Shown here one piece after another: positions 17,846 through 32,080 of a stretch of 33,001 nucleotides of DNA (positions are counted from its first letter, which is position 1; every line of letters begins with the position of its first letter). The position numbers and the translations under genes are program-made. This DNA comes from Elusimicrobiota bacterium. Lineage in GTDB: Bacteria; Elusimicrobiota; Elusimicrobia; Elusimicrobiales; UBA9959. The stretch lies in the NCBI GenBank assembly GCA_012517285.1, contig JAAYVG010000041.1:1-33001 (forward strand), read 5' to 3'. Under the pieces are notes generated by a model. The model was not told the DNA's origin and searched no databases. It worked only from the letters and a program-made list of their open reading frames with translations.

Positions 17846-18307
17846 TCACCTTATCATATTTTTATAGACAGAAACATCAGAATCTGGTATCTCTACAGCG
17901 CCAACTGTTTTTTTAAAAAATTCCGATGGGCCAACCCAGCCAATAACAGCATACCCATAGCCATCATAAAACATCTGTTTAAGTGTTCTTATAAGAAGAG
18001 CCTTTCCAACACCAGACTTTCGCTCAGTCTCTATAACCCCTATGGGACCGAAAAAACCTCTGGCAGTGGAATCATAACAGGCAAAACCAATTATCTCTTT
18101 GTTTTTTATTGCAATAAAACATGTTGGCGGAACTGATGAAAAACTCACATCACACTCGCTTGACCACGAGCTTGAAAAATTCTTTCCAACCCAATCAACA
18201 ACCGCTTTTTTTTCCGGGCCTATAGCCCTTTTTATTATGATGCTATCTTTCAAAAAACTTTTTTCATCAATATCAGATATATCATAAAGCTTTACAAGTA
18301 AATCCAT
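17846..18307 (-). CDS. GNAT-family N-acetyltransferase
   Basis: A 153-residue single-domain acetyltransferase. The acetyl-CoA pyrophosphate loop is RKSGVGKALL (Arg96 to about 105), preceded by the beta strand FFGPIGVIETE and followed by YGYAVIGWVGPSEFFKKTVGAVEI, the usual motif A/B layout with a late aromatic segment. The substrate is unknown; an amino group of a small molecule or protein is typical. The ATG overlaps the stop of the Lys-rich gene (TAATG), so translation is coupled to it. ychF follows after about 30 bases. Confidence 0.88.
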   Translation of the reverse strand: MDLLVKLYDISDIDEKSFLKDSIIIKRAIGPEKKAVVDWVGKNFSSSWSSECDVSFSSVPPTCFIAIKNKEIIGFACYDSTARGFFGPIGVIETERKSGVGKALLIRTLKQMFYDGYGYAVIGWVGPSEFFKKTVGAVEIPDSDVSVYKNMIR

Positions 18308-18756
18308 TATTTATCACCATTTTTGTTTATTATAACACTGTTGTTTTCAAGACCTATCATAAGCTCTGATGAGTTTTTTGTAGCAGTGGATTTTTTTACG
18401 TCCTTGCTTTTTGGTTTAACAGGATTTCCCTTCTCATCAAACTTATAAACATTTGCATCTCCCTTTTTAAAAACATATTTATCTTTCTTGGAATTATTTT
18501 TAACAGCTGCCTTCTTCTTTGTTTGTTTTGGCTTAGTACTTTTTGTACTCTTTGATGACTTGGTTGTAACTTTCTTATTCTTAACACCTGAGGCAGATTT
18601 TTTTGACTCAGTTTTTTTATCCTTTGTATCCTTATCAGCATTTTGATCAGTTTCACTGCTCAACCCACTCATATAAAGTGTTGAATCAGATTGCGAAAAA
18701 AGAAAAACTGGAAAGAATAAAAATATAATAAATATTTTTCTCATAATCATTCTCAT
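18307..18756 (-). CDS. Exported lysine-rich low-complexity protein
   Basis: A 149-residue protein with a signal peptide (MRMIMRKIFIIFLFFPVFLF, cut near FSQS) and a mature region dominated by Lys, Ser, Thr and Asp (KTESKKSASG, TKSSKSTKSTKPKQTKKKA). The C-terminal part is more ordinary, with YVFKKGDANVYKFDEKGNPV and ELMIGLENNSVIINKNGDK. No domain is recognised. A strongly basic, disordered exported protein might bind peptidoglycan or nucleic acid, but that is speculation. TATAAT ends 5 bases before the first ATG and no Shine-Dalgarno is seen, so the transcript may be leaderless. Internal ATGs at 18750 and 18744 are alternatives. Confidence 0.75.
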   Translation of the reverse strand: MRMIMRKIFIIFLFFPVFLFSQSDSTLYMSGLSSETDQNADKDTKDKKTESKKSASGVKNKKVTTKSSKSTKSTKPKQTKKKAAVKNNSKKDKYVFKKGDANVYKFDEKGNPVKPKSKDVKKSTATKNSSELMIGLENNSVIINKNGDK

Positions 18757-18761
18757 AATAA

Positions 18762-18767
18762 ATTATA
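18762..18767 (-). promoter_or_regulatory. Predicted -10 box of the Lys-rich/GNAT/ychF unit
   Basis: TATAAT on the minus strand overlaps the stop codon of the RF-FolD gene and ends 5 bases before the first ATG of the Lys-rich gene. No -35 match is visible. Confidence 0.4.
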
Positions 18768-19956
18768 GCAGGTTTTTGGCAGCTTTTACAGTGGCATTCA
18801 AAAGACAGGCAAGAGTAACAGGACCAATTCCTCCTGGAACAGGTGTTATCGCACTGGCAATATCTCTAACACTGCTGAAATCAATATCACCACACATCCT
18901 TCCATTTTCATCAATATTTGTCCCTATATCAATCAAAACCTGATTCTCACCTATCATATCTGATTTAATAAAATTAGCCTTACCAATCGCAGATACTATT
19001 ATATCTGAATTTTTTAGATATTCATTCAAATTTTTTGTTTTTGTGTGACAGATTGTAACAGTCCCGTCAAGCATCGAAAGCATATGTGCAACAGGTTTTC
19101 CTGTTATGGAAGACCTTCCAACAACGGTAATTTTTTTACCGGAGATATCAATATCATAATGCATCATCAATCTTATGGTTGCATAAGCAGTCTGAGGTAC
19201 AAAAAAATCATATTTTTTTATATCATCAAATTTTTTTGATATAAAAAGCCTGCCCATATTAATAGATGAAAGAGCATCAACATCCTTACTAGGATTTAAT
19301 GCATCCCAAAACTCTGGATCATCAAAGCCATCAGGAAGAGGTTTTTCAACCATTATGGCATCAACATTTTTATCGTTTCCAAGCTCCTTTATAAGCGATA
19401 TAAAAAATTTCTTATCTGTTTTTTCCCGAGGCATATAAAGCCTTGTATCTATACCGAGTTTCTGAGATTTTTTTATCTTAAGATTCATATAATATGATGA
19501 TGGTGAGTTTTCAAAATAATTTATTATCGCAAGAAAGGGTTTTCTTCCCTTTTTTAAAAGAAAATCCTCAGCCATAAGCTTTGTTTCAGCATTTATTTGC
19601 TCTGATAGTGTTTTTCCTTCAAGAATCATAATCCCTCTCTTCTTTTTTATAATAACATCTGGATTTTTTAAATAAAAATCTTCTATCCTTTCTACAAGAT
19701 CTCTTAATGCAATAAACCTGTTTATACTCAGCGACCTTTCCCTCTGGCATCTAACAGATATACCGAGCGGCCTATATCTGAGCAAAACTGCATTGTTTGT
19801 CTTGTTTATCTTTTGACCACCATTTCCGCTTCCTTTTTGAAATTTTTCATCTATGTCAAAAAGATCAATTCCAAGCTTTTTTATTTTATCCTTTAGTTCT
19901 TCTATCTTTTTTTTGCCAACACTTCCAAATATATCATTAAAATTATCAATTCTCAT
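18763..19956 (-). CDS. folD: Fusion of a GGQ release-factor domain with FolD
   Basis: A continuous 397-codon frame with two parts. Residues 1 to about 105 are an RF-1-type peptidyl-tRNA hydrolase domain like those of the small release-factor-like proteins: GSGNGGQKINKTNNAVLL (GGQ at 46-48), then GISVRCQRERSLSINRFIAL. Residues about 109-397 are a full FolD (methylene-THF dehydrogenase/cyclohydrolase): Tyr156 and Lys160 of YxxxK, KDVDA (224-228), GRSSITGKP (280-288), GDIDF and TPVPGGIGPVT (371-381). Two motifs differ: VEKPLP (Glu204) where FolD has VQLPLP, and PQTA where it has PCTP. The first ATG has no Shine-Dalgarno; an internal ATG at 19629, preceded by GAGAGGG, would give a 288-residue FolD. 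It lies 4 bases after the NERD-helicase gene. Real fusion or two products: undecided. Confidence 0.9.
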   Translation of the reverse strand: MRIDNFNDIFGSVGKKKIEELKDKIKKLGIDLFDIDEKFQKGSGNGGQKINKTNNAVLLRYRPLGISVRCQRERSLSINRFIALRDLVERIEDFYLKNPDVIIKKKRGIMILEGKTLSEQINAETKLMAEDFLLKKGRKPFLAIINYFENSPSSYYMNLKIKKSQKLGIDTRLYMPREKTDKKFFISLIKELGNDKNVDAIMVEKPLPDGFDDPEFWDALNPSKDVDALSSINMGRLFISKKFDDIKKYDFFVPQTAYATIRLMMHYDIDISGKKITVVGRSSITGKPVAHMLSMLDGTVTICHTKTKNLNEYLKNSDIIVSAIGKANFIKSDMIGENQVLIDIGTNIDENGRMCGDIDFSSVRDIASAITPVPGGIGPVTLACLLNATVKAAKNLL

Positions 19957-19960
19957 AAGG

Positions 19961-21682
19961 CTAAATCTTATTATCCTTAGCTTTTTTTATATTACTATCT
20001 ATAAGAGATGTGATTGAGTTGTTTTCAAGTGATATAATATAAAGCTCTTTCCTTGCCCTTGTACATGCAATATAGAGCAATCTCAATGCTTCTGCTTTCT
20101 CAAAATAATTCTGTAAAAGATTTGCACCATAAATTATTACCATATCACTCTCAAGCCCTTTTGATGAGTGTATAGTAGCAAGCTTTACGTCTGCAGAAGT
20201 ATTAGTTTCTTCTCCTATAATAGCAGTCTTGATATTTTTTGAGTTAAGATAATCATATATTCCATCCATCAATCTGTGATTTGGAAAAAGAAACATTAAA
20301 GAAACGCTTTTCTTCTTGTTCTTTATAAGTGAATATATATAATCCTTTGATTCATCTTCGCTATAAAATATTTTTAACTCAGGCCATGAGCCACTTCTTA
20401 TCACGTTCTCATACCTTGTTTCAACAGCATCTTCTTCAAAGCAGAGAATATGATTTTTATCAAGATCCTCAATCAAATCATAGGCAACTGAAATTATCTG
20501 TTTGGTATTTCTGTAATTTGTGTTGAACACCTCAGTTCTACCAACAATATCTATTGAAAGTTTTCTCCAGTTTATGCTTCTCTTATATATATTCTGAGAA
20601 TTATCATATACAATAAAAAGATTGTTTGTCTCTTTATCAAGAAAATTTACAACAGATACATACCACTTACCCATAAAATCCTGTCCCTCATCAATAAGTA
20701 TTGATTGATATTTTATGTCTGATTTCTTAGCAGACTCTATCATCAAATCTGGAATGATATTATTCCAGTAATCATCATTCATCTTTTGAGTGGATGGAAT
20801 TTCTATGCCAAGTCTGTTTAAAACTTTAAAACACCACGAGTGGTATGTCATAACCTCAACATTCGTAAAATCTTTAAGATTATCCTTCAGATATATGGAA
20901 AGAGATCTGTTAAAACACAACACAAGAATCTTCCAATCTGGATTTATCTTTGAAAGAAATTTTGCTCTGGCCACAAGCATGACCGTCTTTCCACTACCAC
21001 TGACACCTCTTATCAATCTGTGACCATTAGAAAACTGTCTTGCTATCCTTTCCTGATGTTTATCAATGACAGCCAATGAATCATTATTTATCTTCAACTC
21101 AGGATATATGATTGATCTTATCTCATCAACCTGAAAATCTTCAAGTTTTGATGGCCTTGCAGGCAAAAACATTTTATCAAGAGATAATTCAAGTTTTTCA
21201 GTTGATGAAAAATCATCAGCAATAAAAAACTTATCAGAAAAAGCTTTTTTGAGTTCATAATAAAAAAGCTTTTCCATATCCTCTTTTTTAAAATTGCTCA
21301 TAAAAACACCAAAACCCCAGTTAACGGAAAGCTTTTTATCCTTAAGAAGTAATTCATCCCTTTTAAGCATATCCACAAGTTGTAGTATATAATTTCTTAC
21401 CTGTTTTAATGGATTTAAAAATCTGATATCCCTGTTATCAACATTTAAAATTATACTATCCTTGTCAGCCTCAATTATTCTATCAAAACTCCAGTCTTTA
21501 ACCTCAATTATTATAACTCCTTTAAGCGGATGTATTATGATAAAATCAGGATAATAGTTTTTAATCTCTGTGTTGTAGTAAACAACGCAGTCATCAGATA
21601 AGTTTTCTTTAAGAATTTCAAAAAGTCTCTTTTCACCCTTTGTAGCACTTTCTGGAATAGTTCTTGGAATCAAAAAAGCCAT
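19961..21682 (-). CDS. NERD-domain UvrD/Rep-like helicase
   Basis: Predicted DNA-processing enzyme combining a nuclease-related domain with a superfamily 1 helicase core. NERD part (about residues 10-120): GEKRLF (Glu17), PDFII (Asp46) and IIEVKDW (Glu60, Lys62), the restriction-endonuclease-like catalytic set. Helicase part: Q-motif around KHQERIARQF, Walker A GVSGSGKT (226-233), Walker B ILIDEGQDF (328-336), NYRNTKQI, TIHSSKGLESD and the C-terminal LLYIACTRARKELYI. The 573 residues are complete. It is transcribed away from the origin and is first in the leftward set, followed 4 bases later by the RF-FolD gene. Its role (repair, defence or plasmid control) cannot be told from the sequence. 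Confidence 0.92.
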   Translation of the reverse strand: MAFLIPRTIPESATKGEKRLFEILKENLSDDCVVYYNTEIKNYYPDFIIIHPLKGVIIIEVKDWSFDRIIEADKDSIILNVDNRDIRFLNPLKQVRNYILQLVDMLKRDELLLKDKKLSVNWGFGVFMSNFKKEDMEKLFYYELKKAFSDKFFIADDFSSTEKLELSLDKMFLPARPSKLEDFQVDEIRSIIYPELKINNDSLAVIDKHQERIARQFSNGHRLIRGVSGSGKTVMLVARAKFLSKINPDWKILVLCFNRSLSIYLKDNLKDFTNVEVMTYHSWCFKVLNRLGIEIPSTQKMNDDYWNNIIPDLMIESAKKSDIKYQSILIDEGQDFMGKWYVSVVNFLDKETNNLFIVYDNSQNIYKRSINWRKLSIDIVGRTEVFNTNYRNTKQIISVAYDLIEDLDKNHILCFEEDAVETRYENVIRSGSWPELKIFYSEDESKDYIYSLIKNKKKSVSLMFLFPNHRLMDGIYDYLNSKNIKTAIIGEETNTSADVKLATIHSSKGLESDMVIIYGANLLQNYFEKAEALRLLYIACTRARKELYIISLENNSITSLIDSNIKKAKDNKI

Positions 21683-30661: not shown

Positions 30662-32080
30662 CTAATCGGGGAAATATTCTCTGCCAAAATGGTCCACATA
30701 TCCCTGCTTACCATTTAATTCAACTCGAGCAAGACCTTCAAAAAAAATAGCCTTATCATATTTCAAAGGTATAACTTCCTTGCCTGATTTATCTATAAAG
30801 CCACAGTAACCATTTAATACAACTTGAGCAAGACCTTCTGAAAAAGACCCAGCATCATCATATTTCAAGGGTATAACTTCCCTGCCTGATTTATCTATAA
30901 AGCCATACTTATCATTTAATTTAACTTGAGCAAGACCTTCTGAAAAAGACCCAGCATAATCATATTTCAAGGGTATAATTTCCTTGCCTGATTTGTCTAT
31001 AAAGCCATACTTATCATTTAATTCAACTAAAGCAAGACCTTCTGAAAAAGACCCAGCATAATCATATTTCAAGGGTATAATTTCCCTGCCTGATTTGTCT
31101 ATAAATCCCAACTTATTATTTAATTTAACTTGAGCAAGACCTTCTGAAAAAGACTCAGCCCAATCATATTTCAAGGGTATAATTTTCCTGCCTGATTTAT
31201 CTACAAATCCCCACTTATTATTTAATTTAACTTGAGCAAGACCTTCTGAAAAAGACCGAGCATCATCATATTTCAAGGGTATAATTTCCCTACCTGATTT
31301 ATCTATAAAGCCATACTTATTATTTAATTCAACTAGAGCAAGACCTTCTGAAAAAGACTTAGCATCATCATATTTTAAGGGTATAACTTCTCTACCTGAT
31401 TTATCTATAAAGCCCCGCTTACCATTTAATTCAATTGCAGCAAGACCTTCTGAAAAAGACCAAGCATCATCATATTTCAATGGTATAACTTCCCTGCCTG
31501 ATTTATCTATAAAGCCATACTTACCATTTAAGTAAACTAGAGCAAGACCTTCGGAAAAAAACCAAGCAAAATCATATTTCCCTTCCATTACGATAGAGCC
31601 ACCATAAGCACAAAATCCTATTTTATTTTTATTATAATCCACACAGGGGAAAATTCTATAATAAACAAGTTCATTATAATATTTATTGTTCCTATTATAA
31701 TAAGCTTCCAAAAAATTCTCAACAAAAATAGATTTATCCTTTGCGGATATAATATCCATTTTAAGAAGTTTATCCAATTTGGCATAATCTTCTTCCATAG
31801 ATTTTTTCTTTTTTTCTAAGGCTTCCTCATATTTCTTTTGATTTATAATATAATCTTTCCACTCCTGGACTCTTTTTAAGGCAATATCCCTGTATTCTGG
31901 AACTTCATTTGAAAAACTTTCCCATCTTTGAATAATTTTATTTATATCTGTTTCATTTTTCTCAAACTTCACAATCTCATCATACTTTGAAAGTTTATCA
32001 ATATCAATTTTATTAAAGTCTAATTCTGTCTCACTTATTGATGATATCTCAGGCTGATTTATCTCCTGTAATGATAGCAC
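30662..32080 (-). CDS. WG-repeat protein (possibly the C-terminal part of the upstream gene)
   Basis: A 472-codon frame with a charged, partly coiled-coil N-terminal region (about residues 20-130, e.g. YEEALEKKKKSMEEDYAKLDKLLK) and then about ten WG repeats. The repeats begin with a degenerate one near 154, followed by eight units of 33-34 residues (GFIDKSGREVIPLKYD, then SFSEGLA and LNNK) and a cut-off last unit from 460. WG repeats form beta-rich extended surfaces, often outside the cytoplasm. The frame starts with GTG directly after the TAA of the CsgG-like gene and in the same reading frame, without a Shine-Dalgarno or a signal peptide. It may therefore be the rest of one longer protein broken by a stop codon, or a second product. 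The function is unknown. Confidence 0.85.
   Translation of the reverse strand: MLSLQEINQPEISSISETELDFNKIDIDKLSKYDEIVKFEKNETDINKIIQRWESFSNEVPEYRDIALKRVQEWKDYIINQKKYEEALEKKKKSMEEDYAKLDKLLKMDIISAKDKSIFVENFLEAYYNRNNKYYNELVYYRIFPCVDYNKNKIGFCAYGGSIVMEGKYDFAWFFSEGLALVYLNGKYGFIDKSGREVIPLKYDDAWSFSEGLAAIELNGKRGFIDKSGREVIPLKYDDAKSFSEGLALVELNNKYGFIDKSGREIIPLKYDDARSFSEGLAQVKLNNKWGFVDKSGRKIIPLKYDWAESFSEGLAQVKLNNKLGFIDKSGREIIPLKYDYAGSFSEGLALVELNDKYGFIDKSGKEIIPLKYDYAGSFSEGLAQVKLNDKYGFIDKSGREVIPLKYDDAGSFSEGLAQVVLNGYCGFIDKSGKEVIPLKYDKAIFFEGLARVELNGKQGYVDHFGREYFPD
30704..31516 (-). repeat. Eight near-identical ~102-bp tandem repeats inside the WG-repeat gene
   Basis: Each unit encodes one 34-residue WG repeat (one unit is a codon shorter). 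On the plus strand each copy contains TGAGCAAGACCTTCTGAAAA-like and CCTGATTTATCTATAAAGCC-like blocks with few differences, including silent positions. This indicates recent duplication or gene conversion. Confidence 0.9.

Follow-up and report, generated by a model that had tools for sequence, protein, structure and literature searches.

When a release-factor domain and a metabolic enzyme share one reading frame, the question is whether the join is real and, if it is, what it does for the cell that carries it. The locus that raises this question lies in a window of 33,001 nucleotides (the whole stretch of DNA analysed here), which is one entire contig (C13) of a draft Elusimicrobiota genome of 1.96 Mb, 52 contigs and 97% completeness. 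On its minus strand, an uninterrupted frame at 18763..19956 runs from its ATG without an internal stop and encodes a 397-aa protein in which an RF-1/GGQ domain is followed by FolD, an essential folate enzyme. A sequence-only reading had described this single frame, leaving out the strand, with GGQ at residues 46-48 and a whole FolD in the same polypeptide. The 397-aa translation bore out each of these points, and both partners were complete by Pfam, with matches above cut-off to RF-1 (residues 28-100, E 1.2e-14), THF_DHG_CYH (112-227, E 9.8e-23), and THF_DHG_CYH_C (232-395, E 5.5e-55). The AlphaFold model of the fusion protein had a mean pLDDT of 91 and displayed two confident domains, the GGQ part being folded over residues 1-97. 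The model was made from a trimmed alignment; a 47-row alignment that stacked stand-alone RF proteins onto FolD was set aside.

A search of related genomes for the same architecture, as the earlier reading had proposed, found it in a second species, the sole other genome of the genus. The fusion there is full-length, free of stops, and 69% identical to that of the window over residues 1-396 of 397, with a nucleotide identity between the two genes of 66-70%. This bears directly on the concern that a missed stop or a chimera produced the frame: although the two genomes from which the fusion is known are both draft assemblies, and the window is one whole contig among the 52, the same junction is present in an independent, diverged genome of another species. 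We therefore consider the fusion genuine and the chance of an assembly or sequencing error negligible. Among the matches listed from 295 sampled Elusimicrobiota genomes, which were the best-scoring ones and the place where any fusion should stand, only these two spanned the whole query; the others started around query residue 108-110 or a little before it, in many cases running across stop codons, and RF and FolD were separate genes in all other Elusimicrobiota among these matches. Separate genes in relatives were what the sequence-only reading had named as evidence against a fusion; they are found in the other genera but not in the second species. The order of domains, which that reading considered undescribed, occurred in no other listed genome of the phylum, and no report of it was found in the literature searched.

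No adjacency of folD and RF was seen in the relatives, and scanning the contigs of named genomes for the fusion gave one ordinary FolD only. Judged from sequence, the fusion seems to have arisen once, within or just before the genus. Other long frames did not withstand inspection. An apparent further fusion in genome G022, with the RF in a 910-aa frame, was a stop-free alternate frame over the neighbouring rsh gene, with the true start just before the RF, and the FolDs lying in 403-414-aa frames in family f15 were ordinary 291-aa FolDs in both cases examined.

The surroundings of the fusion are common to the two species: diverging from it on one side are dnaA and dnaN, and it is followed on the other by a hypothetical gene, a GNAT gene, and YchF. 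At the syntenic site in the sister genus, a plain folD stands opposite dnaA and is followed by the hypothetical and GNAT genes, without an RF there. In the window, a NERD/UvrD-like helicase gene (19961-21682, minus strand) lies between dnaA and the fusion and ends 4 bases upstream of it. This short gap had been reported correctly, but the association that it implied did not hold, as the helicase is missing at the site in both the second species and the sister genus; because it is missing in the second species, we regard it as a local feature and not as part of the fusion system. The hypothetical gene (18307-18756, minus strand) encodes a Lys/Ser/Thr-rich protein with a signal-peptide-like start and without a Pfam or NCBIfam match, and its position after folD is conserved in the second species and the sister genus. 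Elsewhere in the window, a gene on the minus strand (30662-32080) encodes a protein with many tandem 'GFIDKSGREVIPLKYD' (WG-type) repeats.

What kind of release factor has been fused? The N-terminal helices and RF-1 core together make up an mtRF-R-like peptidyl-tRNA hydrolase domain (residues 1-97; 19666..19956, minus strand), an assignment that draws on Pfam, the model, and the best solved relatives, which were C12orf65/mtRF-R chains. A profile built from the family, fusions and stand-alone proteins together, matched C12orf65 over positions 10-118 of 122 (E 8e-19), whereas the same profile matched ArfB in the GGQ segment only (profile positions 31-57), and the curated NCBIfam model of ArfB, whose cut-off is 100 bits, gave 34.7. 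The codon-recognition and N-terminal domains of RF1 and RF2 are absent around the GGQ domain of the fusion; true RF1 and RF2 have genes of their own at other sites in the window genome, where no further RF-1 protein was found besides them. Neither fusion genome has a second copy of either protein. The GGQ codons (G46, G47 and Q48; 19813..19821, minus strand) are invariant in 21 aligned relatives, and all 24 positions that are invariant across these 21 are kept in both fusions, GGQ and its flanks included. The description of the domain as rescue-type given in the sequence-only reading stands in that this is a GGQ domain free of codon recognition; it does not stand in the ArfB sense, since the full-length match is to C12orf65.

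Like C12orf65/mtRF-R (MTRFR; PDB 7a5h, 2rsm), the fused domain has a GGQ domain without a codon-recognition domain; of a basic C-terminal extension it keeps KKKR(G). mtRF-R is stand-alone and mitochondrial, whereas here the basic tail runs directly into FolD. ArfB/YaeJ is likewise a small codon-independent GGQ rescue factor with a basic tail, differing in how little of it the family matches. Eukaryotic C12orf65-MJ1316 fusions also join a C12orf65-like domain to another domain, but their partner serves RNA-end recognition, and the accessible part of that account describes no FolD partner (PMC6514570). With respect to other rescue routes, tmRNA is present in the window genome, in which searches turned up neither an RqcH/NFACT protein nor a small S4 protein of the MTRES1/RqcP kind.

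The FolD part (residues 110-397; 18766..19629, minus strand) is complete by both Pfam domains and by fold, with a TM-score of 0.93 to 3p2o (normalised by target length), and is the sole FolD of the window genome. Alignment to E. coli FolD (1b0a) placed Y156, K160 and D227 at the active-site positions Y50, K54 and D121, but E204 at Q98. Apart from this substitution and the N-terminal fusion, which the bacterial FolDs 3p2o and 1b0a lack, the whole fold is shared with them. The substitution is a family trait older than the fusion: in loci L006-L033, the position is E in all family f1 FolDs examined and mostly P in family f2, while the two f15 FolDs examined keep Q. The E. coli variant Q98H retains about 8% of its dehydrogenase activity and about 1% of its cyclohydrolase activity (PMC5688156), and with E at this position the cyclohydrolase activity of the fused FolD is uncertain. 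The window genome also encodes a cyclodeaminase (FTCD_C) domain and Fmt (fmt), and formate-THF ligase is absent from it.

The two domains are connected by a linker at residues 94-109 (19630..19677, minus strand; placed by alignment and model), which ends in the basic KKKRGI. It is the sole disordered part of the model, with pLDDT <50 at 103-106, and KKRG excepted it is only 37% identical between the species. In stand-alone RF proteins, an R/K-K-K motif is followed by a basic C-terminal end, and the shortest of them stop exactly at the junction point (RRKKRH, RRRKHR); the fusions keep KKKR/KKRG and then run into the FolD Met, so that FolD replaces the rest of the basic RF tail.

At the junction, both fusions retain the Met codon that belonged to folD itself. 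Four bases before this Met110 ATG (19627-19629) lies a Shine-Dalgarno-like GAGAGG (19634..19639, minus strand), with a pairing energy of -8.9 kcal/mol in the window genome and -8.0 kcal/mol in the second species; pairing this good was rare, occurring at 2.6-2.9% of the 272 internal ATGs in frame. The fusion's own start has no Shine-Dalgarno sequence (-3.1 and 0.1 kcal/mol, respectively). With a good internal ribosome-binding site and a fusion start that lacks one, internal initiation probably yields free FolD besides the fusion. RNA structure around GAGAGG and Met110 was no stronger than in shuffles. The GAGAGG lies within the KRG codons of KKRG, and its conservation may serve the amino acids. 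We also considered KKRG as a translated leader that folD itself brought along, and rejected it: folD of the relatives is preceded by a promoter, not a Shine-Dalgarno sequence, making the RF tail the likelier source of KKRG.

That promoter was apparent when folD upstream regions were compared (L006-L033). A -10 box stood 2-13 nt (mostly 6-8) before the folD ATG in 16 of 26 relatives, compared to a mean of 3.2 and a maximum of 9 in shuffles, and there was little sign of Shine-Dalgarno sequences. A -10 box so near the ATG suggests that folD messages of the order are often leaderless. In the second species, TATAAT stands 6 nt upstream of the fusion's ATG; in a promoter scan of the region, sites were no more numerous than in shuffles.

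The stand-alone RF family is common in the phylum, though mostly missing from family f2; among the relatives without it are G005, G020, and most of f2. In 16 of 20 Elusimicrobiota loci (L035-L054, e.g., L043:1684-3511 and L045:3023-4966), the RF lies directly downstream of a RelA/SpoT (rsh) gene on the same strand, with gaps of 3-352 bases, and the rsh genes of both fusion species no longer have an RF beside them. The pair is a possible starvation-linked rescue pair. When aminoacyl-tRNA has run short, human mtRF-R frees the chains left on split large subunits (PMC8786322), and the ancestral pairing with rsh would fit such a role.

Trees of FolD and of the RF both placed the genus beside g13, with moderate support in the RF tree (83/81), as would be expected if both parts had descended vertically. 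The RF branch was 0.5 for the window genome versus 0.26 for the second species, and the longer one could mean relaxed constraint. Synonymous sites are saturated between the two species and dN/dS gives no usable ratio. Differences at codon positions 1/2/3 amounted to 0.25/0.13/0.63 in the RF core and 0.24/0.15/0.51 in FolD; this third-position excess, with the intact GGQ region, suggests that both domains are in use and under purifying selection.

The reading that we favour, at a probability of about 0.65, is that this is a genus-specific bifunctional gene with two ordinary, intact activities, whose FolD would be present both tethered and free. A stand-alone mtRF-R-like gene, ancestrally beside RelA/SpoT in most relatives, would have moved in front of folD, the in-frame join falling immediately behind the basic R/K-K-K motif of the release factor. 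By the simplest route, its coding sequence would have landed between the folD promoter and start codon and lost its stop. The product would be two independently folded domains on a short flexible linker. The GGQ domain is predicted to act on ribosomes that have stalled or split and to free the nascent chain independently of stop-codon recognition; FolD is predicted to make methenyl- and probably 10-formyl-tetrahydrofolate. Two products are probable, RF-FolD of ~45 kDa and, by putative internal initiation, free FolD of ~31 kDa, and the two may mix in FolD dimers.

A bolder idea is that the tether itself was selected, either by putting FolD on ribosomes or by letting one-carbon status (formyl-Met supply) control rescue. 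A stop anywhere in the weakly conserved linker would split the protein in two, yet both species, at 69% identity, retain the open frame; in addition, both domains are intact, fmt is in the genome, and with rsh as the ancestral neighbour a starvation link is plausible. Yet the fusion is confined to one genus, its linker is poorly conserved and disordered, the internal start seems to give untethered FolD, and the relatives show no folD-RF adjacency. A coupling of rescue to one-carbon metabolism is thus possible, the fusion itself being what points to it, but we think it unlikely that the tether was selected. More doubtful still is its most specific form, in which the link between formyl-Met-tRNA-dependent restart and the clearance of starved ribosomes would be made by FolD bound to 50S subunits that have stalled or split, or by an effect of folate status on the GGQ domain; how much FolD is tethered and how much is free would then depend on the internal start.

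Just as unlikely as selection of the tether, in our judgement, is a neutral accident that left a decaying RF part as a tolerated N-terminal appendage, with FolD the sole selected product. The relatives that do without a stand-alone RF, the presence of tmRNA, and the long RF branch of the window genome would all fit such decay, but it sits poorly with a GGQ region and 24 invariant positions preserved in both species, with a third-position bias in the RF about as strong as that of FolD, and with the lack of a stop or frameshift in either species. It is quite improbable that the gene amounts in practice to two separate proteins, through cleavage of the chain or an end to translation of the first part near the junction. 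The internal start is strong and a protease could cut the basic, disordered linker, but neither species has a stop codon between the domains, and an internal start does not stop read-through.

The preferred reading, a bifunctional gene particular to one genus, describes a domain combination, new with respect to the literature searched, whose precursors are still recognisable in sister genera. Beyond the genus, the stand-alone relatives point to a bacterial mtRF-R-like factor, widespread and uncharacterised, whose gene accompanies that of RelA/SpoT, matching the starvation setting of human mtRF-R. The rsh–RF pairing makes the ancestral role of the bacterial relatives of a human disease gene testable.
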